Of a stretch of 41,711 bases of DNA, positions 4,583 to 32,209 are shown in pieces. The first letter of the stretch is position 1. Every line of letters begins with the position of its first letter. The DNA lies in the NCBI GenBank assembly GCA_018644725.1, contig JABGPZ010000012.1:1-41711 (forward strand), in the 5' to 3' direction. The stretch is from Phycisphaerales bacterium. Lineage in GTDB: Bacteria; Planctomycetota; Phycisphaerae; SM23-33. Under the pieces are notes generated by a model. The model saw only the letters and a list, made by a program, of their open reading frames with translations. It was not told the origin of the DNA and searched no databases. The position numbers were made by a program, and so were the translations under genes.

Positions 4583-4606
4583 ATGCGCATCGGGCTTTGT
4601 GGGCAT

Positions 4607-6696: not shown

Positions 6697-7320
6697 TTAT
6701 TTCCCCTCACTCGGTTTGTAATGGGAGGGGAACAACTCCTTAATCAATTTTATCGCGGTGGGCGATTTTTGTATTAGGGCATCTTCTTTCTCAATAAAGG
6801 CGAGAATTTCCTTTTCTTTCTCTCTCAGTGAATCAAAAAAACTCGCGCTCCCATCCAAAAACCAAAACTCGCCAACTTTGATAAACCGGAACCCATAGCC
6901 CGATTCTTCCTGAAAATAAACAATCGTCACATCTCCTTCTGTTCCTTTCTTGTAACTTTCACGTTTGTAACTTTCACTCTCTTTAAAAGGGCTCACCGCT
7001 TTGAACATCGCGCCAAGAGCCTTTCCATTGATCTCAAAAAAGTAGTCGACCCAATTTATAGAAAATTTCTTCTCATATGCCGCTCTGTTCCGCGTTCTCA
7101 TGCGACAGCCCCGAAATTCGAAATCAATATTTTTTACATTCTCCTTATCGTAGTGTGTGATCGAATGATAAAGAGAAAGATCGCCTTCCAACATTGCTTT
7201 TCGATAAATGGAAAACGCCTCCTCAGGGGTTTTGGCACTTTGTTTTTTCTCAACGATCGTGGTCCCCACGCAACCTGCGGAGAAGGCAACAAGCAGGAGT
7301 AAATATAAGAACTTGTTCAT
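6697..7320 (-). CDS. Putative lipoprotein of unknown function, AT-rich gene
   Basis: I do not recognise a family. The product is 207 aa from ATG at 7320 (protein starting MNKFLYLL), preceded by AAGGGAA. A Lys-containing n-region, a Leu-rich core and a lipobox ending FSAGC (Cys17) predict a lipoprotein. The body is rich in Lys, Glu, Phe, Tyr and Ser and has alternating hydrophobic/charged segments. The region from TPEEAF onward resembles NTF2-like or DUF4878-type small lipoproteins with an early helix followed by beta strands, but this is only an impression. The gene is visibly AT-richer than every neighbour, with A/T-ending codons dominating, which suggests recent acquisition or low expression. 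It is divergent from nadK with a 165-nt shared gap. Confidence 0.7.
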   Translation of the reverse strand: MNKFLYLLLLVAFSAGCVGTTIVEKKQSAKTPEEAFSIYRKAMLEGDLSLYHSITHYDKENVKNIDFEFRGCRMRTRNRAAYEKKFSINWVDYFFEINGKALGAMFKAVSPFKESESYKRESYKKGTEGDVTIVYFQEESGYGFRFIKVGEFWFLDGSASFFDSLREKEKEILAFIEKEDALIQKSPTAIKLIKELFPSHYKPSEGK

Positions 7321-7485
7321 GTGATTCCCTTCTATGGTGATTTGTTTCCCCCGCTTAATTTGAAACGGGGCCATGATTTGATCTTACTCCCTAGGGTCAA
7401 TTTTCGCAATCAGATATGTTCAATTCGTCTTCAAAAATTGGGCAATTCGGCTTTCTTTTTCGCGGAAATCGGCTATTCTGGGGGG

Positions 7486-8322
7486 ATGAGCGAAAAACGC
7501 CCCTCCATTTTGATTGTAGCGCACCGCAAGAAGCCCGGCGTGGCGGCGGTGCTGGACGAGTTGCGTCCTTGGATCGAATCGCGTTGCGCCATTGTGGCCG
7601 ACGCGGAGCTGGCAGACCTGCCGGCGAAGTTGGACCCGGCCGGCGCGACGCTGTGCGTGGTGTTCGGCGGGGACGGATCGATCCTCGCGGCCGCCCGTGC
7701 GCTGGCGCATTCGCCGATGCCGATCCTCGGCGTGAACATGGGCAAGCTCGGGTTCCTCGCGGAGTTCAGCGTGGCCGAGTTCCGCGAGCAGTTCGACGCC
7801 GCGCTCGCGGGCGAGCTGCGCGTCTCGCGGCGACTGATGTTGGAGGTCGACTGCGGCGGCTGTGTTACGCCCGCGGCCAACGATGTGACGATCACGTCCG
7901 GCGCGCCGTTCCGCATGATCGAGCTGGAGGCCGCGCACGAGGGCGACTGCATCGCGCACTATCGCGGTGACGGCCTGATCGTGGCGACGCCGTCGGGCTC
8001 GACGGGCCATAACCTGTCTTCCGGCGGCGCGATTGTCCACCCGACGGTCGAGGCGATCGCGATCAATCCGCTCGCGCCGCACACGCTGTCGCTACGGCCT
8101 GTGGTTGTGCCGGCCGAGGGCGAAATTTCTGTGAAACTCCACGCCGCCAACGAGGGCACGAGTCTGCTGATCGATGGGCAGATCGTTCAGCCGCTGGGCG
8201 CGGAGAGCGAAATCACCATTCGGCCGCTGCCGGGAAAATTGCTACTGTTGACGAATCCTGGCCGACCCTATTTCAAAACCCTCGCCGAAAAACTCCACTG
8301 GGGCCGCAGCCCGAGAGGCTAG
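7486..8322 (+). CDS. nadK: NAD kinase (ATP- or polyphosphate-NAD kinase)
   Basis: Phosphorylates NAD to NADP in the cytoplasm. The 278-aa product has the diagnostic GGDGS motif (residues 61-65), NMGKLGFLAEF just after it, a conserved Asn-Asp (AANDV) and the second glycine-rich segment TPSGSTGHNLSSGG followed by the conserved NPLAPHTLS. ATG at 7486, preceded by a G-rich run, starts right before the first beta strand; the frame extends upstream but without family resemblance. The gene is convergent with the fetB-like gene, leaving 12 nt between the stops. Confidence 0.95.
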   Translation: MSEKRPSILIVAHRKKPGVAAVLDELRPWIESRCAIVADAELADLPAKLDPAGATLCVVFGGDGSILAAARALAHSPMPILGVNMGKLGFLAEFSVAEFREQFDAALAGELRVSRRLMLEVDCGGCVTPAANDVTITSGAPFRMIELEAAHEGDCIAHYRGDGLIVATPSGSTGHNLSSGGAIVHPTVEAIAINPLAPHTLSLRPVVVPAEGEISVKLHAANEGTSLLIDGQIVQPLGAESEITIRPLPGKLLLLTNPGRPYFKTLAEKLHWGRSPRG

Positions 8323-8334
8323 CAGGAGAAACGA

Positions 8335-9144
8335 TTATCCGCGTTTTTGGATGGCGTCGTGGAGGAGTTGGTCGCGGGTATTGAACAGTTTTCGCACGGA
8401 GAGGTTTGCGATGATCATACACCCGAGCGCACAGGCGGCCGCGATCATGAACATCACGATGATTTGATATCGCGCGGCCATGGGCGGATTGCCGCCGTTG
8501 ATGATCTGGCCGGTCATCATGCCCGGTAGGGACACGAGGCCCACGACCATCATCGAATTGATGATCGGGATCATGCCCTTGCGGACAGAGGCGCGCAAAA
8601 ATGGCCTTGCCGCTTCCCAGCGGTTCGCGCCCAGCGAGAGCATCATCTCCACTTCGCCGCGCCGCTCGCGAAGGCCTTCCAGCAGCGAGTCCAGACAGAG
8701 CGAAATGCCCGTGAGTGTGTTGCCGAGGATCATGCCCAGCATGGGGATGACATATTGCGCTTTGTACCACGGGTCGACCTGAATGATGGCTTGGGTGACG
8801 GTGGTGGCGACCACCAGCGACGAAAGGCACATTGTGATGACACTGGTGAGGTGGACCCCTTTGTAGCGGTAGCTCGTGCGTGCGACGGCGGCGTGCGAAG
8901 CGGTGGCAATCATCACCGCGATCACCGCGCCCACGGCCCACGGCGCGTCGAGGGCAAAGACTTCACTCAGGACATATCCCAGCAGCAGAAGCTGGACGAT
9001 GGTGCGAGCCGCCGAGAGCGCGAGGCGTTTTTCCAGCCCGAGCTTCATTACCATACTCACCGCGGCCGCGGCGAGAACCAGTCCCATTGCCCCCACCAGT
9101 TGCCACGGAGAAATGGGCGCGACGGAGGCCGCGTGCGCGAGCAC
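8335..9144 (-). CDS. fetB: FetB/YbbM-like ABC transporter permease (UPF0014)
   Basis: Inner-membrane permease of the FetAB family, which in E. coli works with the ATPase FetA in iron export and peroxide resistance. The 269-aa product has about seven hydrophobic segments and the hallmark sequences LGLEKRLALSAARTIVQLLLLGYVL near the start, then PMLGMILGNTLTGISL and SLPGMMTGQI. The start is a GTG at 9144: GGAGGA lies 6 nt upstream inside the last codons of the acetyltransferase gene, and the resulting length matches E. coli FetB (about 259 aa). The same frame stays open to 9651 but only as a shadow of that upstream gene. No ATPase partner is adjacent, so FetA would be encoded elsewhere or the permease is an orphan. 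Confidence 0.88.
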   Translation of the reverse strand: MLAHAASVAPISPWQLVGAMGLVLAAAAVSMVMKLGLEKRLALSAARTIVQLLLLGYVLSEVFALDAPWAVGAVIAVMIATASHAAVARTSYRYKGVHLTSVITMCLSSLVVATTVTQAIIQVDPWYKAQYVIPMLGMILGNTLTGISLCLDSLLEGLRERRGEVEMMLSLGANRWEAARPFLRASVRKGMIPIINSMMVVGLVSLPGMMTGQIINGGNPPMAARYQIIVMFMIAAACALGCMIIANLSVRKLFNTRDQLLHDAIQKRG

Positions 9145-9146
9145 GG

Positions 9147-9617
9147 CTAGTCCTCCAAGTCCATGCGGAAGGTGACCCAGTCGTCCATCTTGGTTGCCCC
9201 TTCGTCGAGGTAGAGGTCGATGGCGTTTTGGTTCCATTTCAGCGCGGTCCACTCGAATCGGGCGTAGTCGCGTTTTTGGGCAAGGTCGGCCAGATAGCGA
9301 ATGACTTTCCGCCCGATGCCGCAGCGGCGGTACTCTTCGTCGATGTAAAGGTCTTCCAGCCACAGCCCCACGCGCCCGGTGAATGTGGAGAAGGTGCGGA
9401 ACACAATCGCGAAGCCGATGGCCTTGCGGTCGTCTTCGAAGAGGAAGCATTCGGCGGCGGGGTGCGGGCCAAACAGATGTGCGCGAAGAAGTTGCTCGGT
9501 GTTGACGACCTCGCCTTCGAGCTTTTCGAATGTGGCGATTTTGCGGATGAATTGCAAAATCGTTCCCACGTCGTGCTGGGTGGCGTTGCGAATCGAGATG
9601 GCTTCGGCGGATGGCAT
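9147..9617 (-). CDS. GNAT family N-acetyltransferase, spermidine/diamine acetyltransferase-like
   Basis: A 156-aa cytoplasmic acetyl-CoA-dependent N-acetyltransferase. The protein is collinear with the SSAT/thialysine acetyltransferase group: FEKLEGEVV in the N-terminal helix region, FEDDRKAIGFAIVF in the core, WLEDLYIDEEYRRCGIGRKV as motif A with the acetyl-CoA loop (R/Q-x-x-G-x-G/A pattern as RRCGIG), and ALKWNQNAIDLYLDEGA as motif B with the catalytic-type Tyr. The substrate may be a polyamine or lysine analogue but cannot be fixed by sequence alone. Its stop is two bases from the GTG of the fetB-like gene, whose ribosome binding site lies inside this gene, so the two are translationally coupled. 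Confidence 0.88.
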   Translation of the reverse strand: MPSAEAISIRNATQHDVGTILQFIRKIATFEKLEGEVVNTEQLLRAHLFGPHPAAECFLFEDDRKAIGFAIVFRTFSTFTGRVGLWLEDLYIDEEYRRCGIGRKVIRYLADLAQKRDYARFEWTALKWNQNAIDLYLDEGATKMDDWVTFRMDLED

Positions 9618-9670
9618 ACCACAGTGTGGCCGAGGTCGGTGGGAATGTCAAGGCCTGGCCTCATATATCC

Positions 9671-9699
9671 TTGACAGCATCCCAGCGGGACGCTATGCT
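9671..9699 (+). promoter_or_regulatory. Probable promoter for the STAS gene
   Basis: TTGACA (9671-9676), 17-nt spacer, TATGCT (9694-9699), located 56 nt upstream of the STAS start codon. Confidence 0.7.
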
Positions 9700-9754
9700 G
9701 AATTGAGCAACAGGACTGTAGAGAACGCGAACGCGATTTAGAAGGAGCACCGAA

Positions 9755-10108
9755 ATGTCTATTCAAGATTGGTCCGACAACATTATTATCGTTGACCTCG
9801 CCGATGATCCGCAATACACCGAGGATCTCGACAATTTGATGAGCGAGGAAGAGGCCGCACCGCACCACGTCGTTTTGAATTTCCAGAACGTGACGTTCAT
9901 CAACTCGTCCAATATTGCTCACCTTTTGCGCGTCCGCAAGGGCCTGCACGACAAGCGCCGCAGCCTGTCGTTTTGCTGCCTCTCGAATGACATCAAGGGT
10001 TTGATGAAGGTCACGGGCCTTGACCTGCTGATTCCGATTCATGATTCGGTCGCGATGGCCATTGCCCAGACCCAGGTCGACGGGCACTGCCTCGACGACG
10101 CGGAATAG
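9755..10108 (+). CDS. STAS-domain protein, anti-sigma factor antagonist-like
   Basis: A 117-aa single-domain cytoplasmic protein. A short N-terminal strand segment with IIIVDLADD is followed by VVLNFQNVTFINSSNIAHLLRV, which aligns with the STAS core strand and the phosphorylatable Ser loop of SpoIIAA-type proteins (second Ser of INSS is the likely phosphosite). The rest fits the alpha/beta STAS fold. Such proteins bind a switch kinase/anti-sigma factor or a stressosome-like partner; no kinase or phosphatase partner is present in this window. It has GGAG-type ribosome binding upstream and its own promoter. A small membrane protein follows 24 nt later and shares its 3'-end sequence. Confidence 0.85.
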   Translation: MSIQDWSDNIIIVDLADDPQYTEDLDNLMSEEEAAPHHVVLNFQNVTFINSSNIAHLLRVRKGLHDKRRSLSFCCLSNDIKGLMKVTGLDLLIPIHDSVAMAIAQTQVDGHCLDDAE

Positions 10109-10476
10109 CGCGGCGTACGAAGAGAGAACGGTGTGAGAAGGAAGAATCAATATTGGCTTTGCTTTGGCGTTGCGTTGGTGTGTACGGTGGTGTCGTATTT
10201 TTTGCTGATCCAAGATTTCATGAGATCCGCTGGCAGTTCTTTGGGGCCGGTGGAAGAGATGTTCAGCGGCCTGCATTTGATACTGGGAATTCTTGTCCCA
10301 GGAGCGTTGGCACCCAATAACATCCCCTTAGTGATTCTGGTTCTTGTCCCGATCATTGGATGGAATTCGCTAGTTTACTACGGCCTGTTGCGTCTGGTGG
10401 CGAGGATTACACGGCCTTGGCGTAAAGGTCGAAATCGCACGTTGTCGGATTTGGAAAAGGACGCGGAATAGCGCGG
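10097..10476 (+). repeat. 17-bp direct repeat spanning the stop codons of two adjacent genes
   Basis: The 17-bp sequence gacgcggaatagcgcgg occurs at 10097-10113 and again at 10460-10476, each time covering the terminal Ala-Glu-stop of the gene plus six downstream bases. The coordinates given span both copies. Confidence 0.7.
10133..10471 (+). CDS. Small membrane protein of unknown function
   Basis: A 112-aa protein starting with GTG at 10133. It has three hydrophobic segments (about 8-27, 45-62 and 64-88) and a basic C-terminal tail beginning PWRKGRNR. No family is recognised. The start codon is 24 nt after the STAS stop, so cotranscription is likely. The last codons (DAE plus stop) and the following bases are identical to those of the STAS gene. 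Confidence 0.6.
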   Translation: MRRKNQYWLCFGVALVCTVVSYFLLIQDFMRSAGSSLGPVEEMFSGLHLILGILVPGALAPNNIPLVILVLVPIIGWNSLVYYGLLRLVARITRPWRKGRNRTLSDLEKDAE

Positions 10477-10571
10477 TTTCCCATTTTGTAGTTCACGCAG
10501 GGGCAATGTATCGTGTATGCTCTCGTTAACCCGTAAGAACACACGACCCCTTCCTTCTACAAGGAGTTTCC

Positions 10572-12155
10572 ATGCTTGATCGCAGAACCATGTTGAAAAT
10601 GATCGGTGTTGCCAGTAGCGCAGCCGCACTGCCTGCACTCGCCGAGTCAACCGCCCCCGCGAAACCAAAGAAGCCCAACATTCTCGTCATCGTCACTGAC
10701 GACCAGGGCTATGCCGACCTGTCGGCCTACGCGCACCACGCCAAGGACATCAAGACGCCGCATATGGACCGCATTGCCAAGGGCGGCGTTGCGCTGATGA
10801 ACGGCTATGTCAGCGCGCCAGTGTGTAGCCCGTCGCGTGCAGGCTGGAACACAGGCCGCTATCAGCAGCGCTGGGATCCGGCTGCGAGCTGGGGTCCGGG
10901 CCTGCCCGTAAACGTTCCCACCGTCGCGCAATATCTCAAAAAAGCGGGCTACGTCTGCGGCAAGGTCGGCAAGAGCGACTACGGCAAAGGCTATCACTCC
11001 ACGACCTCCCACGAGAATCCGATGAACCACGGCTATGACGAGTTCCTCGGCTTCTCCAGCCACGCGCACGACTTTTTCGTGCTTGACGAAGAGACCGAAA
11101 AAAAGGCGCCCGATCCCCGCGGGAAAAGTGCAGCGATGGGCCGACTGCTCAAGAACAAAGGCTGGGCGAGCTTCAAAGACGGATACACGACGAACATCTT
11201 CACCGACTTCGCGATCGACTTCCTCAAGCGTCACAAGGACGGCGAAAAGCCGATGTATCTCACGCTGAGCTATAGCGCGGTGCACCACCTCATTCACGAA
11301 GTGCCCGACAAGTACCTCAAGAAGCACGGCGTGAAGAAGATTCCGAATTACGATCCGGCCAAGAATGGTCGCTATGGCGCATACTACAATAAGTACAATC
11401 AGCTCGGCGCGATCAATGACAAGGACATGCGCGGGTACTATCTCGCGAACCTCAACTGCCTCGACGACAACATCGGCCGACTGCTCGACGCGATGACCAA
11501 AATGGGTCTCGACGAAAATACGCTGGTGATCTTCTTCGCGGACAATGGCGGCTCGCCGCTGACGGGTGCATGCAATCGGCCGTTGCGCGGTTCGAAATAT
11601 GTCATGTTCGAAGGCGGCCTGCGTGTGCCGATGATGATGCGCTTCCCGGGCACATTCAAGCCCGGCACGGTGTGCAAGGAAATCGTTTCGACGCTCGACG
11701 TGCTGCCGACGTGCCTGAGCGTCGCGGGGATCAAGGCCCCCGAGGATGCGATTCTCGACGGGCACAACATGCTCGACGTGGTCGCGGGCAAGGCCAAGTC
11801 GCCCTGGGCCGAGAAGCCGATGTTCTGGAAGTTCGGCGGCGACCGCGCCGTGCGCATGGGTGACTGGAAACTCGTGCGGGGCAAGAATTCCAATGGCCGC
11901 ACAGCAACCAGCCAGATTCTCTCCGGCCCGCACACCAAGGGCGAGTGGATGCTGTTCAACATCAAGGACGACCAGGCCGAACAGAACAATATTGCCTCCG
12001 CGCACCCCGATGTCGTCGCGCGTCTTTCGGATTTGTGGAAGGGCTGGGACATGAACGTCTGCGCCAGGCGCAAATCCGGCCCAGCCAAACCGAAAAAAGA
12101 GAAGGTCAAAAAGAAGGATAAGAAGAAAAACAAACAGGCCCCGGCCACTCACTAG
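10572..12155 (+). CDS. Type I sulfatase (arylsulfatase family) with Tat-like signal
   Basis: Exported hydrolase of sulfate esters, probably on polysaccharides or sugars. The 527-aa protein begins with DRRTMLK (a twin-arginine-type motif) and a hydrophobic stretch, with a likely signal peptidase site after ALA (about residue 24). The catalytic domain starts with PNILVIVTDDQG (metal-binding Asp43/Asp44). The formylglycine site is CSPSR with Cys85 and Arg89, i.e. a Cys-type sulfatase needing conversion by FGE or anSME. FFADNGGSP supplies further metal ligands. The C-terminus is a strongly basic Lys-rich tail of about 25 residues, unusual for the family and possibly an envelope or polyanion contact. 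Aids for classification such as flanking glycoside hydrolases are absent, so the substrate is unknown. A strong terminator follows. Confidence 0.93.
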   Translation: MLDRRTMLKMIGVASSAAALPALAESTAPAKPKKPNILVIVTDDQGYADLSAYAHHAKDIKTPHMDRIAKGGVALMNGYVSAPVCSPSRAGWNTGRYQQRWDPAASWGPGLPVNVPTVAQYLKKAGYVCGKVGKSDYGKGYHSTTSHENPMNHGYDEFLGFSSHAHDFFVLDEETEKKAPDPRGKSAAMGRLLKNKGWASFKDGYTTNIFTDFAIDFLKRHKDGEKPMYLTLSYSAVHHLIHEVPDKYLKKHGVKKIPNYDPAKNGRYGAYYNKYNQLGAINDKDMRGYYLANLNCLDDNIGRLLDAMTKMGLDENTLVIFFADNGGSPLTGACNRPLRGSKYVMFEGGLRVPMMMRFPGTFKPGTVCKEIVSTLDVLPTCLSVAGIKAPEDAILDGHNMLDVVAGKAKSPWAEKPMFWKFGGDRAVRMGDWKLVRGKNSNGRTATSQILSGPHTKGEWMLFNIKDDQAEQNNIASAHPDVVARLSDLWKGWDMNVCARRKSGPAKPKKEKVKKKDKKKNKQAPATH

Positions 12156-22995: not shown

Positions 22996-24225
22996 ATGAT
23001 GAAACGCATGATGACATTGATGTTGCTGACGACGCTGTTTGTGGCTGGCTGTGGTTGTGGCTGCGGCGGCAAGTGCGGCGACAAGGCGGGCAAGTGCTGC
23101 GGGAAAGACGGCACCTGCTGCAAGGTTAAAAAAACCGGCGGCTGCGGCGGCAAGTGTGGCTGCAAGGGCGGCGCCAAGGCACCTGCGACCATTGTCCTTC
23201 CGTCTGTTGCTGGCGAAGCGGTCTCGATCGTTCTGCCCAAGGGCATGGCCAATCCCGACGGCATGCTCAACACGCCGTGCGGCTGTGGAACCTTCCTCGT
23301 TGTCACCAACGTGTCCCATCCCGGTTGCAGCGTGTTGATGATGATCGACAAGGACAACAAGATCACCAAGGTCATTGACCTGCCCCTTCACCCCGAGACC
23401 AAGACGATGGTTGCTCTTGGTGTTGCGGTCGGCAGCGATGGCAATCTCTACATCGCCGACAACCAGGAATTCGCTGGCCATGGCAGTCACAAGGCGCGCC
23501 TGCTGCGCGTGGTGGTGAAGGACAAGAAGGCCGTCAAGGTCGAAACGGTTGTGACGGGTATGATCGCCGCCAACGCCGTGGTGGCCTACAAGGATCGCCT
23601 CTACATCACCGAGACGACGCTCAAGGCCGGCCAAGCCCCGCACCAATCGGGCGTGTACGGTTTTTCGATTTCCGAACTCCAGGGCGACACGCCCCTCGCG
23701 ATCAAACCCGACGGTACGGACTCGCACCTGATTGCCACGTTGACCACGACGGCTGACGACTGGTGTGCAGGCATCGGTGCCAATGGCCTCGCGATCACCC
23801 CCGGCGGCATGATGTACGTCAGCAACTTCGGCACGGCCGAGATCCTCGGCGGCCAACTCTGCTCCGAAGGCAAGCTCGACGCGCCCCTCAAGGTCGTCGC
23901 CAAGGGCACGGAAGAAAACGGCATGGGCTCGGTCGACGGCATGAAGTATATCGCCGACAAGGGCGTGCTGATCGTGGCCGACTTCCACCACAATGGCGTT
24001 TGCGCCATCAACCCCAAGACCGGCGAAGTCAAAACCCTCGTGAAGAATGCCAACTCCGACGGCTCGAAGGGCCAGATGGACAAACCCTCGGAAGTGTGCC
24101 TCCGCGGCAACACGCTGTACGTCTCGAACATCGACCTCGGTGCCGACGGAAACAACGCGACCGCGGAGGGCAAGTCTGCCCCCGACGGCGTGGACACTAT
24201 CGTCGCGATTCCGCTCAAATGGTAA
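22996..24225 (+). CDS. Lipoprotein with Cys-rich metallothionein-like linker and SMP-30/NHL-type beta-propeller
   Basis: A 409-aa protein. The signal peptide has a lipobox ending FVAGC (Cys19). Immediately after it comes a 40-residue Cys/Gly/Lys segment with ten further cysteines (21, 23, 27, 34, 35, 41, 42, 50, 54, 56) arranged as CxC, CC and CxxxC, i.e. metallothionein-like spacing. From about residue 65 the chain is a beta-propeller of the SMP-30/gluconolactonase/NHL kind with repeats such as GVAVGSDGNLYIADNQEF and GLAITPGGMMYVSNFG. A metal-dependent lactonase activity is possible: an extracellular sugar lactone would fit the dehydrogenase operon, but catalytic residues cannot be confirmed by eye. 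The gene is preceded by GAAGGAGAC and ended by a strong terminator. Confidence 0.85.
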   Translation: MMKRMMTLMLLTTLFVAGCGCGCGGKCGDKAGKCCGKDGTCCKVKKTGGCGGKCGCKGGAKAPATIVLPSVAGEAVSIVLPKGMANPDGMLNTPCGCGTFLVVTNVSHPGCSVLMMIDKDNKITKVIDLPLHPETKTMVALGVAVGSDGNLYIADNQEFAGHGSHKARLLRVVVKDKKAVKVETVVTGMIAANAVVAYKDRLYITETTLKAGQAPHQSGVYGFSISELQGDTPLAIKPDGTDSHLIATLTTTADDWCAGIGANGLAITPGGMMYVSNFGTAEILGGQLCSEGKLDAPLKVVAKGTEENGMGSVDGMKYIADKGVLIVADFHHNGVCAINPKTGEVKTLVKNANSDGSKGQMDKPSEVCLRGNTLYVSNIDLGADGNNATAEGKSAPDGVDTIVAIPLKW

Positions 24226-24250
24226 CGACATAAGATAGAGTGATTCATTG

Positions 24251-24281
24251 CCGGCGGCTCTTCGGAGTCGTCGGTTTTTTT
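24251..24281 (+). terminator. Rho-independent terminator of the catabolic operon
   Basis: A ten-pair stem CCGGCGGCTC/GAGTCGTCGG (with two G-T pairs) and a TTCG tetraloop is followed by seven T. It is 25 nt after the lipoprotein stop and is the first intrinsic terminator of good quality seen downstream of 15827. Confidence 0.9.
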
Positions 24282-24402: not shown

Positions 24403-24543
24403 ATGAAACGCTTTGCAATGTTAATGCTCGTGGCGATGTTCTTGGTGGCTGGCTGTGGGAAGAAAGCCGAAGCCCCCGCCGCCAAGACCGACTGCGAAGC
24501 TTGTGGCGTGGGTAACGCTTGCAAGTGCCCCGCACCCAAATAG
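24403..24543 (+). CDS. 46-residue Cys-containing small lipoprotein
   Basis: A short gene with AAAGGAAA seven bases before ATG 24403. The product has a lipoprotein signal (MKRFAMLMLVAMFLVAGC, lipid Cys18) whose core matches those of neighbouring lipoproteins, a short Lys/Ala/Pro spacer, then a CEAC motif (Cys31, Cys34) and a CKC motif (Cys40, Cys42), ending in PAPK. Four free cysteines in the mature part suggest metal binding or a redox role; no named family is recognised. It stands alone between two terminators and so has its own transcription unit. Confidence 0.72.
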   Translation: MKRFAMLMLVAMFLVAGCGKKAEAPAAKTDCEACGVGNACKCPAPK

Positions 24544-24611
24544 GGAAGTCGGCAGCTGGTAGACGAATTGAATGCAGGCCCACGGGAGATGGTGCTTCGA
24601 TGTATTTCCAG

Positions 24612-24640
24612 CCTGATGGCACGGGTCATCAGGTTTTTTT
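24612..24640 (+). terminator. Rho-independent terminator of the small lipoprotein gene
   Basis: CCTGATG pairs with CATCAGG over an eight-base loop, followed by seven T, 68 nt after the stop. Confidence 0.85.
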
Positions 24641-24741: not shown

Positions 24742-25278
24742 ATGAGCGAGCAAACCGACCGCCGCCGCGCAATGCTGACCAAAGCACTGGAGGAGCACTC
24801 CGATGTGTTGGTGGGGTATGCGCGTAAACTTCTGGGCGACTGGGACCTTGCGCGCGACGTGGTGCAGGACGTGATGGTCAAGCTGATCCCGGCCGAACCG
24901 CTTCCCGCCGACGGCGCGCTCAAAAGCTGGCTGTTTCGGGTCTGCCGCAACCGTGCCATCGACATCATCCGCAAGGAGCGACGCATGAACTTCCTCGAAT
25001 CTCCCGGCGAGACAACGCCAGACCCGGCGATGAGCCCCGCCGCCGCCGTCGAGCTTGGCGACACCGTCTCGGGTGTGTTGGCGATGCTCGACACGCTGCC
25101 CACAAATCAACGTGAAGTGTTGCGCCTGAAATTCCAGGCCGAACTCAGCTATCGTGAAATCGCCGAAATTACAGGCCACAGTGTCTCAAACGTCGGCTTT
25201 TTGATCCACACCGGCATCCGCAAACTCCGTGACAAACTTCGCCCCACGGGCCTGCTGGTCCAGGGAGGTGTAGCATGA
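24742..25278 (+). CDS. ECF-type RNA polymerase sigma factor
   Basis: A 178-aa cytoplasmic sigma factor of the extracytoplasmic-function group. Region 2: YARKLLGDWDLARDVVQDVMVKLI, followed by WLFRVCRNRAIDIIRKERR. Region 4: LPTNQREVLRLKFQAELSYREIAEITG with the HTH and a basic C-terminus. Region 3 is replaced by a short acidic/Pro linker. ATG 24742 is preferred because GGAG stands seven bases upstream; a GTG at 24730 is possible. The stop overlaps the next gene by ATGA, as typical for a sigma/anti-sigma pair. No ECF-type autoregulated promoter could be defined in the roughly 100 nt upstream. Confidence 0.92.
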   Translation: MSEQTDRRRAMLTKALEEHSDVLVGYARKLLGDWDLARDVVQDVMVKLIPAEPLPADGALKSWLFRVCRNRAIDIIRKERRMNFLESPGETTPDPAMSPAAAVELGDTVSGVLAMLDTLPTNQREVLRLKFQAELSYREIAEITGHSVSNVGFLIHTGIRKLRDKLRPTGLLVQGGVA

Positions 25279-26546
25279 CCTATGACCCATCCAATACGCC
25301 CCGTGATGAACTGCTCGAACTCAAGCTGCCTGCGCTGATTGCTGGCGAGCTGAGCGAGGCCGAGGCCGCCGGGCTTCGCATGGCCATCAATGCCGACGAA
25401 GCTCTTGCCGCCGAATACGAAGAATTGCTCAGTGCGACGTCGCTGCTGGGGATGGCGTTGAAGCACGAGCCGACCCAGCCGCTGACCAATACCCAGATCG
25501 AAGCGATTCTCAAGGCGGCTGAAACGGGCGAAGAACGTCTTGACGCGCTCGAGTCGGCCGCACGGAGCCGCACGTTCCATTTCCCGTGCGGAGACGGCGG
25601 GCGCAAATGGCAGTGGTGGCTTTCGGTGGCGGCGAGCATTGTGGTTTGTATTGTCGCGGCGCAATTTTTGATGATGCTCGGCAGCGCAACCCGTCCCAAA
25701 CCGATTCCCGGCCCGGTGGCGACCACGCCCGATGGCGAGCAAACGCCCGAAGGGTATCACGGTACGCCCGCGCCGCTGGAGGGTGATACGATTTGGATCG
25801 ATCCCGGTATGATGCCTGACACCACCGAGCCGCATCTCGCCAGCGCACCGCGCGAGGGCTATGTCCCGCTCGAAATCAAGCTGCCTTCCCGCCGATCCGA
25901 CGGCACGCCTTGCCTCATCTCCCGCAACGAGCCGAACATGGAAGAACGCAAGCCGAGGGATTATCGCCGGCCACAGTTCTATGTTCCCAAGGGCACGATC
26001 AACGTCGCGCTCACCACGACCGTCACCGCCAGCGAAGAACCGATGATCGGGGAATTGTCCCAGATCGTTGATGGCATTGCCGAATCGGACGATGAGAATA
26101 TTCTCGACCTCGACTCCGGCCCGGTGTGGGTGACGTTGGACCTCGGCAAATCGTGCGAGCTTTTCGCGATTGTGATGTGGCATCGTGACCGCGGGGAAGT
26201 CGAAATTGCGATGCGCGACGTGATTGTCGAGACGGCCGACGACAAAGACTTCACAATCAACCATTACATCCTCTTCAACAACGATCACGATGGCTCGCTG
26301 AACAAAGGCCACCCCAAGGGCACCGACCAGCAGTACATCGAAACCCACGAGGGCAAGCTTGTCGACGCGCTGGCGGTCAAGGCGCGCTACGTGCGTTTCT
26401 GGTCCAACGGCAACACCGTGGACGATTGCACCTATTGGAGTGAGATCAAAATTTTCGGCAAGGATATCCCCACTTCGACCACGCCTGGGCTGAACCCCCT
26501 CGCGATGATCGTATCCCGAGCGCTTCGCGCTCACCTCGCGAGCTGA
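25275..26546 (+). CDS. Putative membrane anti-sigma factor with C-terminal discoidin-like domain (subtype A)
   Basis: A 423-aa single-pass protein. The N-terminal cytoplasmic part (1-110) is helical and acidic, starting DELLELKLPALIAGELSEAEA as in short anti-sigma domains, but it lacks a HxxxCxxC zinc motif. A transmembrane segment follows (about 112-135), then a Pro-rich linker, and from about 195 to 405 a beta-rich discoidin/F5-8-type-C-like domain with EPNMEERKP, RRPQFYVP, QIVDG, LDLGKSCELFAIVMWH, ILFNNDHDGSL, RYVRFWSNGN. This domain is the same as in the three lipoproteins downstream. Calling it anti-sigma rests on the ATGA overlap with the ECF gene and on topology, as no known anti-sigma domain is recognised with certainty. 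Confidence 0.75.
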   Translation: MTYDPSNTPRDELLELKLPALIAGELSEAEAAGLRMAINADEALAAEYEELLSATSLLGMALKHEPTQPLTNTQIEAILKAAETGEERLDALESAARSRTFHFPCGDGGRKWQWWLSVAASIVVCIVAAQFLMMLGSATRPKPIPGPVATTPDGEQTPEGYHGTPAPLEGDTIWIDPGMMPDTTEPHLASAPREGYVPLEIKLPSRRSDGTPCLISRNEPNMEERKPRDYRRPQFYVPKGTINVALTTTVTASEEPMIGELSQIVDGIAESDDENILDLDSGPVWVTLDLGKSCELFAIVMWHRDRGEVEIAMRDVIVETADDKDFTINHYILFNNDHDGSLNKGHPKGTDQQYIETHEGKLVDALAVKARYVRFWSNGNTVDDCTYWSEIKIFGKDIPTSTTPGLNPLAMIVSRALRAHLAS

Positions 26547-26610
26547 GGACTCGCAGGACCCCAACGTCGCATGGATGGAGACCACGACGAACGCACTGAA
26601 GGAGAATATC

Positions 26611-28857
26611 ATGAAATCTGCACTTTATACCTGCCTGATCGCAGCCGTACTGCTTGGCGTTGGCGGTTGTAAGAAATCCAAACCGCCCACACCGCCCACA
26701 CCTGCAACCCCCGCCACATCTGCGGATAAGGTGGAATTGACCTTTGAGCCGGGCTCGCCGTGCGGAGTCACCGGCGCGGTTTTGCCCGATGTCGTTATGC
26801 GCGACTTGACTGACGAGCAGAAACGTCATTTGCGCAACTTCATTCCTCCCAAGGGGAAATTTTTCGTCCGGCGAGGCGTGCGCAACGTGGCGAAATACAA
26901 AACTTTCACAACCAACAAGCGGTCCTCGGCCCACCCTTCCTATCTGGGCGATGGCGACATTGACCCGAATCGATGGGGTCGAAGTCTTTCCCTCTATGAA
27001 GATCCCGCGCCGAGCTATGCCAACGATGAGCAACCCCATGTGACGGTGGATCTCGGCGGCGAGTATGATGTGGAAGCGGTGTGCGTGTGGCATGATTATA
27101 AACGGCGGACAATTTTTGAGGGCGTGGTTGTGCAGGTGTCGACGCGGGCGGATTTCTCTACCAATTCGACCGAGACGGTGTTCAACAATGATTACTCGGG
27201 CGAGATGGGCTTTGGCACGGGGAAAGACTCGCTCTATCGTTCCAGCACCGACGGCGAGTTGATTCGTGTCGGCATCGAGGGCGTCGGTTGGCGCGGCCGT
27301 TATGTGCGGGTCTATACGCGCGGCGTGGCTGGCGATCCCGAGGCGAGTCCGACGCTGTTGGAAGTGGGGGTCTATGCGCGGCCGAACCCGGGCGACATTG
27401 ACCCCGACGACTTGGTCGAGTTGGAATTTGATTTTTTCAATTTCAACCGCGATGAAGATTGGAAGCATGGCCCGTGGCATATGGAGGGCGTGTCGCGTCC
27501 GACGATTTGCTATCCCGACAACATCAAGCCCGAGCAACAAAAGCGGATGCGGCCTAGGGCCTGGAGGCTGCCTTTGATGATGGTTCGCAAGGGCGTGCGA
27601 AATGTAGCACGAGGCAAAACATCCACCGCCAACAAGAAAAGGATGGGCTTGGGGAAACTAACCGTCCTGACCAACGGGGCCGTTGCGTGTGATACGTTGG
27701 AACAGGTGTTCATGCTGACGGACGAAGCGGCAGAGGGCCATGACGAGGATGAGATTCCTGCGGTGACGGTGGATCTCGGCGCGGAGTATGATGTGGAAGC
27801 GGTGTGCGTCTGGCACAATTATCGCCGGCCGATTATCTATGAGGGTGTTGTCGTGCAGGTTTCGACGGACAAGAATTTTCCCGATGACCCGGCCAAGACG
27901 CAGATCATTTTCAATAATGATTACCACGATGATGTCGGTTTTGGCAAAGGCGAGGACTTGTTGTATTGCGCCAGCATGTATGGCGAATTGATGCGAGCAG
28001 GGCCGATGGGCAAAGGCCGCAAGGCGCGGTATGTGCGGGTGTATACCTACGGCGTGCTGAACGATTTCTCGTCGTATCCCGCATTCCTCGAAATTGGCGT
28101 GTACGCACTGCCCAAGAAACTCGATGTGCAACAGGCCCGCCAGCACATCGTTCAGGCCAAGGCGGTCGAGAAACAACGCGAGACCGTGCAGGAAAAAGTT
28201 GCGGAGGAGCTTACCGTAGCGGTTGCTGCGGCGCAGGAAAATGCGCCCACGGGGATGGCTGCGCTCGATGTGACCCTTCCGAAGCAGCGCATTGATGGCA
28301 CACCTCAGCCGCCCAAGGGCGAACCGAACATGGAAACGTCCAAACCCAAGGGCTACACGCGTCCTGCGTTCTATGTCCCCACCGGCACGATCAATCTTGC
28401 CAAGGGCAAGACCGTCACCGTCAGCGAAGAGCCGATGGTCGGCGAGATATCGCAGATCGTCGACGGCGAAGCCGAATCGACCGACGAAACCACGCTCGAC
28501 CTCGACTCCGGCCCGGCCTGGGTGGTTGTCGACCTCGGCAAGGAATGCGAGATTTTCGCGATCCTGATGTGGCACCGTCACAGCAACATTTACGTCTTCC
28601 GTGACGTGATCATCGAAGTGTCCAACGACATGGACTTCCTCGATGCCACCGTCTTGTTCAACAACGACCACGACGGCTCGCTCGGCAAGGGTTACGAAAA
28701 GGGCCATGACAAGCAGTACATCGAAACGTACGAAGGCAAGCTGGTTGATGCCAAGGGCACCAAGGGGCGCTACGTCCGGTTCTGGTCGAACGGGAATCAC
28801 TACGACGGCTCGAACTACTGGATCGAAGCGATGGTCTTTGGCCGCGCGGTGAAATAG
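26611..28857 (+). CDS. Large lipoprotein with three discoidin-like domains (C-terminal subtype B)
   Basis: A 748-aa protein from ATG 26611, preceded by GAAGGAG. The signal peptide ends in a lipobox VGGC (Cys20), followed by a Pro/Thr-rich spacer. Three related beta-domains follow: about 87-255 and 325-500 (each with RGVRNVA or KGVRNVA, VTVDLG.EYDVEAVCVWH, VVVQVS, RYVRVYT), then 550-748, which is of the conserved family shared with the flanking genes (FYVPTGTINLAKGKTV, QIVDG, LDLDSGPAWVVVDLGKECEIFAILMWH, LFNNDHDGSLGKG, GRYVRFWSNGN). Such domains usually bind carbohydrates or other surface ligands. The protein is probably surface or periplasm exposed. Confidence 0.82.
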   Translation: MKSALYTCLIAAVLLGVGGCKKSKPPTPPTPATPATSADKVELTFEPGSPCGVTGAVLPDVVMRDLTDEQKRHLRNFIPPKGKFFVRRGVRNVAKYKTFTTNKRSSAHPSYLGDGDIDPNRWGRSLSLYEDPAPSYANDEQPHVTVDLGGEYDVEAVCVWHDYKRRTIFEGVVVQVSTRADFSTNSTETVFNNDYSGEMGFGTGKDSLYRSSTDGELIRVGIEGVGWRGRYVRVYTRGVAGDPEASPTLLEVGVYARPNPGDIDPDDLVELEFDFFNFNRDEDWKHGPWHMEGVSRPTICYPDNIKPEQQKRMRPRAWRLPLMMVRKGVRNVARGKTSTANKKRMGLGKLTVLTNGAVACDTLEQVFMLTDEAAEGHDEDEIPAVTVDLGAEYDVEAVCVWHNYRRPIIYEGVVVQVSTDKNFPDDPAKTQIIFNNDYHDDVGFGKGEDLLYCASMYGELMRAGPMGKGRKARYVRVYTYGVLNDFSSYPAFLEIGVYALPKKLDVQQARQHIVQAKAVEKQRETVQEKVAEELTVAVAAAQENAPTGMAALDVTLPKQRIDGTPQPPKGEPNMETSKPKGYTRPAFYVPTGTINLAKGKTVTVSEEPMVGEISQIVDGEAESTDETTLDLDSGPAWVVVDLGKECEIFAILMWHRHSNIYVFRDVIIEVSNDMDFLDATVLFNNDHDGSLGKGYEKGHDKQYIETYEGKLVDAKGTKGRYVRFWSNGNHYDGSNYWIEAMVFGRAVK

Positions 28858-29023
28858 AATGACGCGGCCTGTGCGGCCGACGCAATACAAGAACACAAGG
28901 GTAGAACCCTACACCAAACAGGAGACTCATGATGAAGACGCAAAAATGGATTATGCTGATGATGGTTGCGGCGCTGTTCGTCGCGGGGTGCGAAAAGCGC
29001 GACCCGGCCAAGAGCGCCAAGGA
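28815..29023 (+). repeat. 209-bp near-identical repeat, copy 1
   Basis: This block covers the last 14 codons of the 748-aa lipoprotein gene, the intergenic gap and the first 31 codons of the next gene. It recurs 836 bp downstream with two mismatches (28848 and 28871). The gap contains two small hairpins: CGGCC/GGCCG (28865-28879) and AGGGT/ACCCT (28898-28910). Confidence 0.95.
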
Positions 29024-29693
29024 GACCGACAACAAGACCCCGGCCCCCGCAGCCAAGGCTGATCCCGCAGCGCCTGCTGGCCAGGTCGCGCTGAAGATCA
29101 TGCTTCCCCAAGAGCGCTTTGACGGAACGCCCCTGTCGCCCAAGGACGAGCCGAACATGGAAGAACGCAAGCCGAGGGGCTATCGCCGGCCACAGTTCTA
29201 TGTTCCCATCGGCACGGTGAATTTGTCCCAGGGCAAGACCGTTACCGCCAGTGAAGAACCCTTTGTCGGGGAACTGAAACAGATTGTTGACGGCAATGCC
29301 GAATTGACCGACGAAACCACACTCGACCTGCACTCCGGCCCGGTGTGGGTGACAATCGACCTCGGCAAGGAATGCGAAATTTTCGCGGTCCTGATGTGGC
29401 ATCTTGACCGCGGGGTAATCGAAATTGCGATGCGCGATGTGATTGTCGAGACGGCCGACGACAAAGACTTCACAACCAACCATCACATCCTCTTCAACAA
29501 CGACCACAACGGCTCGCTGAAGAAGGGCCACGGCAAGGGCTCCGACAAGCAGTACCTCGAAACGTACGAAGGCAAGCTCGTCGATGCCAAGGGCACCAAG
29601 GGGCGCTACGTCCGGTTCTGGTCCAACGGTAACACCTGGGACGATTACACCTACTGGATCGAAGCGATGGTCTTTGGCCGCGCAGTGAAATAG
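28929..29693 (+). CDS. Lipoprotein with one discoidin-like domain (subtype A)
   Basis: A 254-aa lipoprotein. Signal MLMMVAALFVAGC (Cys21), a Lys/Ala/Pro-rich linker, then the conserved domain from about residue 50 with EPNMEERKPRGYRRPQFYVP, GKTVTASEEP, WVTIDLGKECEIFAVLMWH, EIAMRDVIVETADDKDF, ILFNNDHNGSL, RYVRFWSNGN. It shares long stretches of DNA as well as protein with the C-terminal domain of the anti-sigma-like gene. CAGGAG precedes the double ATG at 28929/28932. It is likely cotranscribed with the genes on both sides. Confidence 0.85.
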   Translation: MMKTQKWIMLMMVAALFVAGCEKRDPAKSAKETDNKTPAPAAKADPAAPAGQVALKIMLPQERFDGTPLSPKDEPNMEERKPRGYRRPQFYVPIGTVNLSQGKTVTASEEPFVGELKQIVDGNAELTDETTLDLHSGPVWVTIDLGKECEIFAVLMWHLDRGVIEIAMRDVIVETADDKDFTTNHHILFNNDHNGSLKKGHGKGSDKQYLETYEGKLVDAKGTKGRYVRFWSNGNTWDDYTYWIEAMVFGRAVK

Positions 29694-29859
29694 AATGACG
29701 CGGCCTATGCGGCCGACGCAATACAAGAACACAAGGGTAGAACCCTACACCAAACAGGAGACTCATGATGAAGACGCAAAAATGGATTATGCTGATGATG
29801 GTTGCGGCGCTGTTCGTCGCGGGGTGCGAAAAGCGCGACCCGGCCAAGAGCGCCAAGGA
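29651..29859 (+). repeat. 209-bp near-identical repeat, copy 2
   Basis: Second copy of the 28815-29023 block, spanning the end of the 254-aa lipoprotein gene, the gap and the first codons of the 288-aa lipoprotein gene. One of the two changes is in the loop of the CGGCC hairpin, leaving the stem intact. Confidence 0.95.
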
Positions 29860-30631
29860 TGTTGCAGACAAAGCAGGCGAAATCAAGATGGCTGACAACG
29901 CCGACGCGAAAGTCGCCGACAAGATAGATGACAAGGCTGACGCAAAAGTAGCCGACGACGCCCCGGCCCCCAACCCCGAGCCGAAACCGGCCCCCAAGCC
30001 GGAACCCAAGCCTTCCGCCGCGGGCCAAGTTGAGCTGAAGATCGCTCTCCCTGTGGAGCGCATCGACGGCACGCCCCTGCCGCCTCAGGGCGAACCGAAC
30101 ATGGAAACGTCCAAGCCCGTGGGCTACACGCGCCCCGCGTTCTACGTGCCTTCCGGCACGATCAACCTTGCCTTGGGCAAGACCGTCACCGTCAGCGATG
30201 AACCCCTGGGTGCCGAGCTTTCGCAGATCGTCGACGGCAATGCCGAATCGACCCAAGAAACCACGCTCGACTTCGGCTCCGCCCCGGCTTGGGTGGTTGT
30301 CGACCTCGGTAAGGAATGCGAAATTTTCGCAATCCTGATGTGGCACAGTCACAGCAACATCTACGTCTTCCGTGATGTGATCGTCGAAGTGTCCAACGAC
30401 CCGGACTTCCTCTCAAGCGAGGTCCTGTTCAACAACGACCATGACGGCTCGCTCGGCAAGGGCCACAAAAAGGGCACTGACAAGCAGTACGTCGAAACGT
30501 ACGAAGGCAAGCTGATTGACGCCAAGGGTGTCAAGGGGCGCTACGTCCGGTTCTGGTCGAACGGCAACACCGCCGACAAGTCGAACTACTGGATCGAAGC
30601 GCAAGTCTTTGGGAGAGCGCTGACGAAGTAG
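29765..30631 (+). CDS. Lipoprotein with one discoidin-like domain (subtype B)
   Basis: A 288-aa lipoprotein whose first 31 residues are identical to those of the preceding protein, lipid Cys21 included. It then has a longer, charged linker of about 50 residues with repeats of Asp-Ala-Lys-Val-Ala-Asp type and a Pro/Glu/Lys stretch, followed by the conserved domain with EPNMETSKPVGYTRPAFYVP, GKTVTVSDEP, WVVVDLGKECEIFAILMWH, HSNIYVFRDVIVEVSND, LFNNDHDGSLGKG, GRYVRFWSNGN. This pattern is of the subtype found in the C-terminal domain of the 748-aa protein. It is the last gene before a strong terminator. Confidence 0.85.
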   Translation: MMKTQKWIMLMMVAALFVAGCEKRDPAKSAKDVADKAGEIKMADNADAKVADKIDDKADAKVADDAPAPNPEPKPAPKPEPKPSAAGQVELKIALPVERIDGTPLPPQGEPNMETSKPVGYTRPAFYVPSGTINLALGKTVTVSDEPLGAELSQIVDGNAESTQETTLDFGSAPAWVVVDLGKECEIFAILMWHSHSNIYVFRDVIVEVSNDPDFLSSEVLFNNDHDGSLGKGHKKGTDKQYVETYEGKLIDAKGVKGRYVRFWSNGNTADKSNYWIEAQVFGRALTK

Positions 30632-30691
30632 GGGCATCCTTTGTGGGTGCCGTGGCGGGAACGACAACCGCAGACAACGCGAAGCGACGAA

Positions 30692-30721
30692 CCCGGCCGA
30701 AATCGGTCGGGTTTGTTTTTT
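30692..30721 (+). terminator. Terminator of the sigma/lipoprotein cluster
   Basis: CCCGGCCGA pairs with TCGGTCGGG (one G-T pair) and is followed by TTTGTTTTTT, 60 nt after the last lipoprotein stop. No good terminator was seen between 24742 and this point. Confidence 0.85.
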
Positions 30722-30791: not shown

Positions 30792-31031
30792 ATGGCAAAG
30801 ACAATTGACGTCCTCGGCACAGGCTGTGCCAAGTGCAAAATGCAATACGAAACGGTTCTCCAGGCGGTCGCCGAGCTCGGCCTCGACGCGGAGGTGAATA
30901 AAGTCGAAGACATCGCCCAGATCGTCGCGGCCGGCGTGATGATGACACCCGCGATCCGCATTGACGGCACCGTCGTCGCCAGCGGCAAACTCTATGACCT
31001 CGCCGCCGTCAAAGCACTCTTGGAGGCCTGA
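30792..31031 (+). CDS. arsE: Small thioredoxin-fold redox protein (MTH895/TM0996 family; ArsE-like)
   Basis: A 79-aa cytoplasmic protein of the small redox-active-disulfide group. It begins with IDVLGTGCAKC, giving a CAKC active site (Cys12, Cys15), followed by a cis-Pro region MMTPAIRIDG, the mark of the thioredoxin fold. A GAAAGGAA site precedes ATG. It is the first of three genes with the same order as the arsEFG operon described from Shewanella putrefaciens, where ArsE and ArsF together reduce nitrated aromatic arsenicals and ArsG exports the amino product. The physiological substrate here is unproven; a general electron or disulfide relay is possible. Confidence 0.85.
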   Translation: MAKTIDVLGTGCAKCKMQYETVLQAVAELGLDAEVNKVEDIAQIVAAGVMMTPAIRIDGTVVASGKLYDLAAVKALLEA

Positions 31032-31034
31032 TTG

Positions 31035-31493
31035 ATGCCCATGCTTTGGAAACGTATTCTGGGACTCGCGATTGTCCTTTTCGCGGCCGGCTCGTTGGTC
31101 TATTCGTTTACGACCGACCCCTATGGCCACCTGCAACCCTACAAGCCGCCGCGCGATGGCGTGGTGGTGTACTATTTCCTCGTGGGGTCCAAGCGGTGTG
31201 ACACCTGCAAGAACATTGAGGCCTATACGCGCGCTGCCGCCCAAACGGCCAAGGCGGAGGCGGTCGTGTTTGCGCTGGTCAATGCCGACGCGGAGGCCAA
31301 TGCGCATTTTCGCGACCCGGCGGAATTTAACCTCGCGGGCAAGTCGGTCGTCGTCGCACGCTATGCTGACGGTAAGCTCGTCAAATCGGTCAAGTGCAAA
31401 AAGATTTGGACGTGGGTCCACCAGGGTCAGGACGTGTTTGTCGCGGGGGTTCACGCCGCGCTGAAGAGCGTCGCAGAGGGGGCGGAAGAATGA
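31035..31493 (+). CDS. arsF: Membrane-anchored CxxC protein, ArsF-like
   Basis: A 152-aa protein with one N-terminal membrane anchor (about 7-25) and an extracytoplasmic thioredoxin-like domain: VVYYFLVGSKRCDTCKNIE with a CDTC pair (Cys55, Cys58), then VVFALVNADAEANAHF and a later CKKIW motif. This matches proteins annotated as nitrophenyl compound nitroreductase subunit ArsF. ATG 31035 is chosen (GGAGG lies eight bases upstream, inside the end of the preceding gene); a TTG at 31032 is an alternative. Its stop overlaps the next start by ATGA, which indicates coupling with the permease. Confidence 0.8.
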   Translation: MPMLWKRILGLAIVLFAAGSLVYSFTTDPYGHLQPYKPPRDGVVVYYFLVGSKRCDTCKNIEAYTRAAAQTAKAEAVVFALVNADAEANAHFRDPAEFNLAGKSVVVARYADGKLVKSVKCKKIWTWVHQGQDVFVAGVHAALKSVAEGAEE

Positions 31494-32209
31494 TTGCGCA
31501 GGAGGTCCTGACATTTTCCGAAGCAATTCGCCTTGCACTGTGGCTGGGGCTGTGGCTGGGGATTCAGCCGTGTTCGCTGACGCTGAACATTGCGGCGGTC
31601 TCGTTTTTGTCGCGTGAGGTGGCTTCGCCCAGACGCGCAATGATTCAGTCGATTTTCTATACGCTTGGGCGCATTGCGGTGTATGTTGCGCTCGCGGCGT
31701 TTCTCGTTAGTGCCGTGGAGCGCTCGGCCGTCGTCGAGGCGTGGCTTCACAAGAACATGATGCGCATTGTCGGCCCGATGTTGCTGCTGATGGCGGTTCT
31801 GTTTTTGGAATGGCTTCCGCTGCGGATGTGGCATTTGCGCGCAGAAAAAACGGGTCAGGCCCTCGCCCGACGTGGTGGAGTGGTTGCGTCGTTTTTGCTG
31901 GGGATGCTATTCGCGGCTGCGTTTTGTCCCGTTTCGGCGTTGATCTTTTTCGGGAGCCTTGTGCCCTTGGCGATTCAACACAAAAGCCCCTATCTGTTGC
32001 CCGGGGTGTTCGGCGCGGCGACGGCGGCGATTGTCATCGGTTTTGCGATCATCATCATTTTTGCGGCCAGCAAACTCTCCAAGGTGTTTGCGACCGTCCA
32101 GGCCGTCGAAAAGTGGATTCGCCTGATTACCGCCATCGCATTTCTCGCCATTGGCCTGCATTATACCCTCGAACACACGCTGATGATTCACCTGTTCCAC
32201 GGGCATTAG
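31490..32209 (+). CDS. arsG: ArsG-like DsbD/CcdA-superfamily membrane permease
   Basis: A 239-aa polytopic inner-membrane protein with six hydrophobic helices. Key motifs are GIQPCSLTLNIAAVSFL in TM1 and FCPVSALIFFGSLVPLA in TM4, each with a Cys next to a Pro, as in CcdA/DsbD-type proteins and the aromatic arsenical permease ArsG. ATG 31490 overlaps the stop of the ArsF-like gene by ATGA. The two cysteines could carry electrons across the membrane, so the trio could work as a reductant relay to ArsF or as the described arsenical exporter; sequence alone does not separate these. Confidence 0.82.
   Translation: MIAQEVLTFSEAIRLALWLGLWLGIQPCSLTLNIAAVSFLSREVASPRRAMIQSIFYTLGRIAVYVALAAFLVSAVERSAVVEAWLHKNMMRIVGPMLLLMAVLFLEWLPLRMWHLRAEKTGQALARRGGVVASFLLGMLFAAAFCPVSALIFFGSLVPLAIQHKSPYLLPGVFGAATAAIVIGFAIIIIFAASKLSKVFATVQAVEKWIRLITAIAFLAIGLHYTLEHTLMIHLFHGH

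Follow-up and report, generated by a model that had tools for sequence, protein, structure and literature searches.

A block of five genes on the + strand, at positions 24742-30631 of a 41,711-nucleotide stretch of DNA from a Phycisphaerales bacterium (the window in what follows), consists of the gene of an extracytoplasmic function (ECF) sigma factor, the gene of a one-pass membrane protein and three lipoprotein genes, L1, L2 and L3. We think it reasonably likely that this block is an autonomous sigma/anti-sigma sensor operon, in which the membrane protein displays a copy of the CBM32-like domain that belongs to a conserved envelope module. ECF sigma factors are abundant, and to our knowledge the signal and the regulon of most of them are not known; comparative genomics gives here a concrete predicted regulon and a candidate sensor domain.

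The pathway that can be envisioned is as follows. The N-terminus of the anti-sigma would hold the sigma factor in the cytoplasm, and outside the membrane the same protein would show a domain copy like that of the module, which is made up of a stand-alone domain protein, a TIGR03663/Agl23 protein, ApbE, a 7-heme cytochrome, Gfo/Idh oxidoreductases and sometimes an NQR/RNF FMN subunit. On contact of the sensor copy with a ligand or partner of the domain, the anti-sigma would be inactivated, most likely by regulated proteolysis, and the released sigma would transcribe the domain module along with its own operon. The window genome encodes peptidases of the site-2-protease family, which are near universal and thus lend weak support to the proteolysis step.

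The gene block and its common domain

The sigma stop (25278) and the start of the membrane protein gene (25275) are joined by an ATGA overlap, and the gaps between genes of the block are 64-71 bases. The strongest terminator-like sites of the + strand flank the block (Table 1), a further one, also strong, lies upstream at 24250-24275, and inside the block we found weak matches of 5-6 pairs only. A preliminary description of this DNA, made from the sequence alone, had seen no terminator within the genes until 30692 and had given the same layout, both of which stand; its count of five domains does not, as there are six copies of a CBM32/discoidin-type domain in the block, one in the membrane protein, three in the 748-residue L1 and one each in L2 and L3.

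The product of the first gene has regions 2 and 4 only, in about 180 residues, as expected of an ECF factor, and scored 89.9 bits against the NCBIfam model TIGR02937 (cut-off 42.9). The upstream GTG at 24730 is not needed as a start because a GGAG ribosome-binding site precedes the ATG at 24742. The 423-residue membrane protein looks like an anti-sigma, as the preliminary description had proposed. We infer that its N-terminus binds the sigma factor because of its layout (one transmembrane segment and an outer C-terminal domain), the overlap with the ECF gene, a sub-threshold match of residues 18-135 to the anti-sigma profile NF052375 (E=5.4e-7, 29.8 bits against a curated cut-off of 100), and the likeness of its N-terminus to proteins that adjoin related ECFs and differ widely in their C-terminal parts, e.g. 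VWA/YfbK proteins. A zf-HC2 match was weak (E=0.084), the Zn-anti-sigma motif was not found in this protein, and its first 100 residues are without cysteine. A single-sequence model of the N-terminus (pLDDT 58) is usable only for helices in residues 10-61. Cell-surface signalling of the FecR/TonB kind was rejected, there being no FecR match for the anti-sigma in Pfam. From the missing Zn-anti-sigma motif and the weak profile match it could be argued that sigma and membrane protein are no regulatory pair, the latter being a mere envelope protein of the same operon; given the ATGA overlap, the single pass with N-terminus in and C-terminus out, and an N-terminus shared with ECF partners of different C-termini, we consider this highly improbable.

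The structure prediction of the domain that had been suggested gave a confident result. An AlphaFold model of the sensor copy, built on a 56-row alignment, reached pLDDT 89 and pTM 0.89 and has the galactose-binding-like jelly roll of the CBM32 and F5/8 type C fold; the best Foldseek matches (probability 1.00, TM on target up to 0.77) were chitosan-binding modules, CBM32s and fucolectins. By this model the domain is of the CBM32/discoidin type. In Pfam the matches of L1 and L3 to the F5/8 type C family pass the curated cut-off, and those of the anti-sigma and L2 copies stay below.

The domain of the anti-sigma is 61.6% identical to L1 domain 3, 71.1% to L2 and 60.8% to L3, which bears out the earlier claim of a shared outer domain, and all conserved pairs in the block are 61-80% identical; as a matter of sequence, this likeness is far beyond chance. 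The two diverged L1 domains (DOM') are 27-33% identical to the conserved copies and 46% to each other. The lipoboxes are clear (GVGGC in L1; VAGC in L2 and L3). In the domain tree the L2 domain is sister to the anti-sigma domain (support 100/96). L2 and L3 are 98-100% identical in the DNA of their 5' leader and signal sequence, and L2 (28859-29693) is a mosaic of the L3 leader, two anti-sigma-like patches (88-97% DNA identity to the sensor copy) and one L1-like patch (97% to the L1 copy). Such a mosaic would be expected after gene conversion between sensor and target copies, and it may be selected or neutral.

The likeness extends to contig C59 of the window genome, where an NQR/RNF-type operon (4487-10838) includes a 454-residue NqrC/RnfG-like FMN_bind protein fused to a diverged domain copy and ends with a domain lipoprotein. 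The second DOM' of L1 is 68% identical to the NqrC-fused domain, and the conserved L1 domain and the L3 domain are 84-86% identical to that of the C59 lipoprotein. Therefore, the sigma operon re-uses both domain types of the NQR-linked pair.

Table 1. Features of the block and its borders, in window coordinates
Feature	Position	Strand	Remarks
Terminator-like hairpin	24610..24635	+	11-pair stem, then T run; sets block apart from upstream small lipoprotein gene
ECF sigma-70 factor, 178 aa	24742..25278	+	Pfam Sigma70_r2 E=2.8e-14, r4_2 E=2e-12
Putative membrane anti-sigma, 423 aa	25275..26546	+	ATGA overlap with sigma gene; anti-sigma-like N-terminal region about 1-100; one transmembrane segment about 115-135; proline-rich linker; CBM32/discoidin-like domain about 191-402
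Lipoprotein L1, 748 aa	26611..28857	+	Three domains: two diverged (DOM'), one conserved C-terminal; F5_F8_type_C_2 E=5e-16, three stretches
Lipoprotein L2, 254 aa	28929..29693	+	One domain, copy closest to sensor domain (71%)
Lipoprotein L3, 288 aa	29765..30631	+	One domain and proline/lysine-rich linker
Terminator-like hairpin	30686..30717	+	14-pair stem, then T run; block end

Recurrence of the pairing and promoter boxes

The domain was found in 78 of 298 sampled genomes of the class, and in at least 18 of these 78, mainly longer frames having been taken, an ECF gene lies directly upstream of a transmembrane protein with the domain (genomes G000, G009, G033, G047, G056, G076, G088, G133, G143, G153, G190, G195, G219, G243, G264, G276, G291 and G294). 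Six ECF loci beside that of the window hold a second domain gene (L171, L173, L174, L176, L179 and L180). In the sigma tree the domain-linked ECFs fall into at least three separate, well-supported clades, namely that of the window and those designated f12 and f21, and three f17 cases stand apart, one of them on a long branch. Repeated fusions to ECF-linked membrane proteins, for which the preliminary description had proposed a search, are thus borne out. Counting well-supported branches only, the label 'sensor' changes at least four times on the domain tree; this implies either several separate sensor fusions or several swaps between partners. Sensor copies of the f12 group, and likewise those of the window genome, group with non-sensor copies from their own lineage.

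The sigma clade of the window includes factors whose partners are VWA/YfbK proteins, and the window sigma is closest to sigmas of the same family that adjoin VWA/YfbK-type or domain-bearing anti-sigmas. At three loci (L019, L021 and L022) close sigma relatives adjoin one-pass proteins with the same type of N-terminus and a VWA/YfbK ectodomain. It would seem from these genes that ectodomains have been exchanged on one sigma/anti-sigma chassis. At a further locus (L190, 177-6890 of G294:C85) a BlaI-type repressor gene is followed by that of a BlaR1/M56 peptidase of about 2000 residues, which ends in the domain and whose frame is broken near the end; this locus shows that a second sensor class, that of BlaR1-type receptors, took up the domain. 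In the remaining phylum sample the domain matches listed were mostly short stand-alone frames, and this sample of frames suggests that the ECF fusion is absent outside the class. Viral contigs gave one match only, a distant one, and the 748-residue lipoprotein, used as a whole query in the genome contigs, found no relative.

When the upstream regions of the domain-linked ECFs were aligned, conserved boxes appeared in two sister clades, f12 and f21. The f12 pattern GATTT-n-GTGATT-n12-GCGAGAT, taken from four ECF regions, also matches upstream of stand-alone domain genes. A weight matrix made from the four ECF sites alone had its top match 182-259 nt upstream of a domain gene in all three f12 genomes that have a stand-alone domain locus, with scores of 25.1, 26.3 and 30.8 bits against 20.5 bits for the best of 23 control loci, and none of the control-locus matches listed lies at a domain gene. 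The operon behind the box encodes the domain protein, Agl23 and ApbE. In the whole genomes G047, G056, G076 and G088 the refined f12 pattern has seven sites, which are four ECF operons and three domain operons, and its reversed control has 0. The full f21 box occurs at the ECF only; its core, TGTAACA-n12-GCGCAA, was met 18 times in eight genomes (the reversed control: 2), namely at seven ECF operons, four domain genes of the cytochrome cluster described below and four Gfo/Idh genes, with three unassigned. Upstream regions of this kind provide good evidence that the f12 and f21 ECFs control the domain-centred module and themselves, and it is probable that the sensor shares its domain with its regulon. 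The sigma operon of the window organism itself includes the domain lipoproteins; relatives have a separate module operon with a shared box, and the same regulon logic may hold for the window pair.

A number of points speak against the sensor operon reading. For the refined f12 and f21 patterns the domain-gene sites were known beforehand; free of that hindsight are the initial f12 pattern and the f12 weight matrix only, the matrix being the cleaner test. A dyad search between the upstream region of the window sigma and the C59 domain locus gave no shared box, and one genome of the window's genus was at hand, so its sigma promoter could not be footprinted. The N-terminus of the anti-sigma has the sub-threshold profile match and the low-confidence single-sequence model given above. 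Finally, most domain genes have no ECF nearby: a pattern scan of GTDB genomes, based on a domain alignment, gave at least 514 relatives in many phyla, and among the best 80 of these relatives none of the 36 loci that are flanked by 6 kb on each side has an ECF. We therefore rejected the idea of an ECF-specific domain. The preliminary description had taken wide occurrence without ECF partners as telling against it, and formally that is the case here; this rules out no more than an obligatory link to ECFs and leaves a functional one untouched. In genus g10 (L053/L192), too, a dyad search gave nothing convincing as a shared box.

One could argue that a common adhesive domain simply spread to anti-sigmas and lipoproteins by local duplication, without functional coupling. 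The domain is indeed abundant and tandemly duplicated, as in a locus with four such genes (L188), and L2 and L3 with their nearly identical leaders are recent duplicates. Neutral shuffling of this sort would not account for promoter boxes that are common to ECF and domain operons only, nor for recruitment in at least three ECF clades, and it appears improbable to us. In the array mentioned (93-2889 of G182:C550) all four genes encode stand-alone secreted domain proteins.

The envelope module and the possible ligand of the sensor

Away from ECF loci the domain mostly stands alone, as a secreted protein or lipoprotein, and its setting, which had been missed in the preliminary description, is one of redox and flavin genes. 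A TIGR03663/Agl23 membrane protein is encoded at 32 of the 36 well-flanked loci and ApbE at 28, and 25 of them have a Gfo/Idh oxidoreductase and 19 a 7-heme cytochrome; seven CxxCH motifs are present in 45 of 46 long cytochrome matches. A conserved cluster in many phyla reads Gfo/Idh, 7-heme cytochrome with a transmembrane part, (transporter), domain protein, TIGR03663/Agl23, ApbE and GT2 (e.g. L071, 3375-13009; L257; L260), and the phyla with the domain-linked envelope redox cluster include Planctomycetota, Aminicenantes, Acidobacteria, KSB1 and Verrucomicrobia. The substrate of ApbE is not evident in this cluster. Four loci (L108, L122, L134 and L035, the last being the C59 operon of genome G000) encode an NqrC/RnfG-type FMN_bind protein that carries the domain as a fusion. 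In genus g10 (L192, 2649-5324; L044, 587-2761), domain genes adjoin genes whose products combine two CxxCH motifs with a hydrazine-synthase-alpha middle domain. Across many phyla, flavin transfer and a 7-heme cytochrome are joined in the envelope redox cluster to a CBM32-like protein.

What the sensor copy would respond to can be read in two ways, both of them versions of the sensor operon reading, which is agnostic between them. A glycan ligand is possible because of the fold, and a protein of the module because of the flavin-subunit fusions and the strong conservation. In the first case the domain would be a true carbohydrate-binding module, and the sensor would report an environmental or envelope glycan, leading to more domain proteins with which to use or grip it, much as in substrate sensing by RsgI. 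This reading is favoured by the structural matches, the nearest of which are glycan-binding CBM32s, by the sugar-type Gfo/Idh oxidoreductases of the module and by genes for a sulfatase and a carbohydrate kinase near the window block; the SigI/RsgI system is a precedent of its logic (PMC4711584, PMC12203970). However, the domain is a subfamily of about 200 residues with about 60% identity between phyla, which is unusually conserved for a carbohydrate-binding module tracking varied glycans, and the NqrC/RnfG flavin-subunit fusions point to a constant partner. We regard glycan sensing as possible, if somewhat doubtful.

In the second case the sensor domain would mimic a subunit of the module and bind its protein partner, be it the cytochrome, the NqrC-like subunit or another protein; a free partner, or the loss of the lipoproteins that occupy it, would lead to sigma release and homeostatic feedback, an idea close to the competition between sensor and lipoproteins put forth in the preliminary description. 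Repeatedly, sensor copies have originated next to non-sensor copies of their own lineage, gene-conversion-like patches keep the sensor and L2 alike, and L1 joins the NqrC-type diverged domain with the lipoprotein-type one, two types that are neighbours in the C59 NQR/RNF operon. Against this, the gene conversion may be neutral, and such self-monitoring of the module, with its predicted partner binding, must be called tentative and rather unlikely. A broader version, which we also hold to be unlikely, is that the anti-sigma mimics a subunit of a widespread envelope electron-transfer module and would sense its assembly, occupancy or redox state rather than free glycan, the module's domain having been taken up by independent ECF lineages and once by a BlaR1-type receptor. 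If the sensor operon reading is true, the repeated use of a target domain for sensing would amount to a general design rule of envelope signalling.

Other genes close to the block in the window may be mentioned. Just 5' of it, at 24404-24544, lies a gene for a lipoprotein of 46-47 residues (MKRFAMLMLVAMFLVAGCGKK...), closed by the terminator at 24610, and further upstream, at 22996-24225, one for a lipoprotein that has an NHL/SGL-type propeller and whose N-terminus is very rich in cysteine (CGCGCGGKCGDKAGKCC...). Directly past the terminator at the block end, genes at 30792-32209 encode a Thioredoxin_3 protein, a thioredoxin-like membrane protein and a DsbD_2-type membrane protein, and are possibly an envelope thiol-redox operon.

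Comparison with known systems

The setting of the domain resembles the ApbE-flavinylated extracytosolic electron-transfer systems (PMC8238504, PMC11334425), in that ApbE, FMN_bind and NQR/RNF proteins stand around it or are fused to it. In the main texts of both papers the word discoidin is absent and planctomycetes are not named, and PMC11334425 makes no mention of a sigma factor. We found no description of the cytochrome-domain-Agl23-ApbE cluster in the open-licence literature, within which the 7-heme cytochrome cluster appears to be undescribed. In the same literature, with ECF classification papers partly covered, we found no paper on discoidin-type anti-sigma ectodomains in planctomycetes. 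With CBM32 and F5/8 type C domains, e.g. the chitosan-binding modules 4zy9 and 4zz5, the domain shares its fold and a weak sequence similarity (E=0.011), but it is longer (about 200 residues against about 135), has an N-terminal extension and forms a highly conserved subfamily of its own. The VWA-YfbK ECF pairs of the same planctomycete family (L019, L021 and L022) have the closest sigmas (51% identity) and similar anti-sigma N-termini, whereas their outer part is VWA/YfbK and their short loci hold no same-domain partner genes.

The preliminary description had known of no system with this design, which needs correcting, as the SigI/RsgI system of Clostridium thermocellum has the logic: the ectodomains of its anti-sigmas are carbohydrate-binding modules that also occur in the sigma-activated proteins, and its regulon comprises the sigma's own operon and secreted proteins with such modules, including the CBM3 in cipA and cel9V (PMC4711584, PMC12203970). 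In both systems a sigma gene is followed by that of a one-pass anti-sigma with an outer domain of this type. The promoters that sensor operon and targets share in SigI/RsgI have a predicted counterpart in the boxes of the f12 and f21 relatives; the window itself has the shared domain, and no shared box in the dyad search. SigI, unlike the window sigma, is not an ECF, and the N-terminal and autocleaving periplasmic domains peculiar to RsgI gave no Pfam or NCBIfam match in the window. Membership in the SigI/RsgI family was rejected on these two grounds. The ligands of SigI/RsgI are plant polysaccharides and its targets cellulosome genes, whereas here the target would be a flavin- and cytochrome-linked envelope module, and the sensor domain has been recruited in several ECF lineages, with copies within the same operon. 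Thus, it appears that the logic was already known from SigI/RsgI, while this domain and a redox-linked regulon were not found described.

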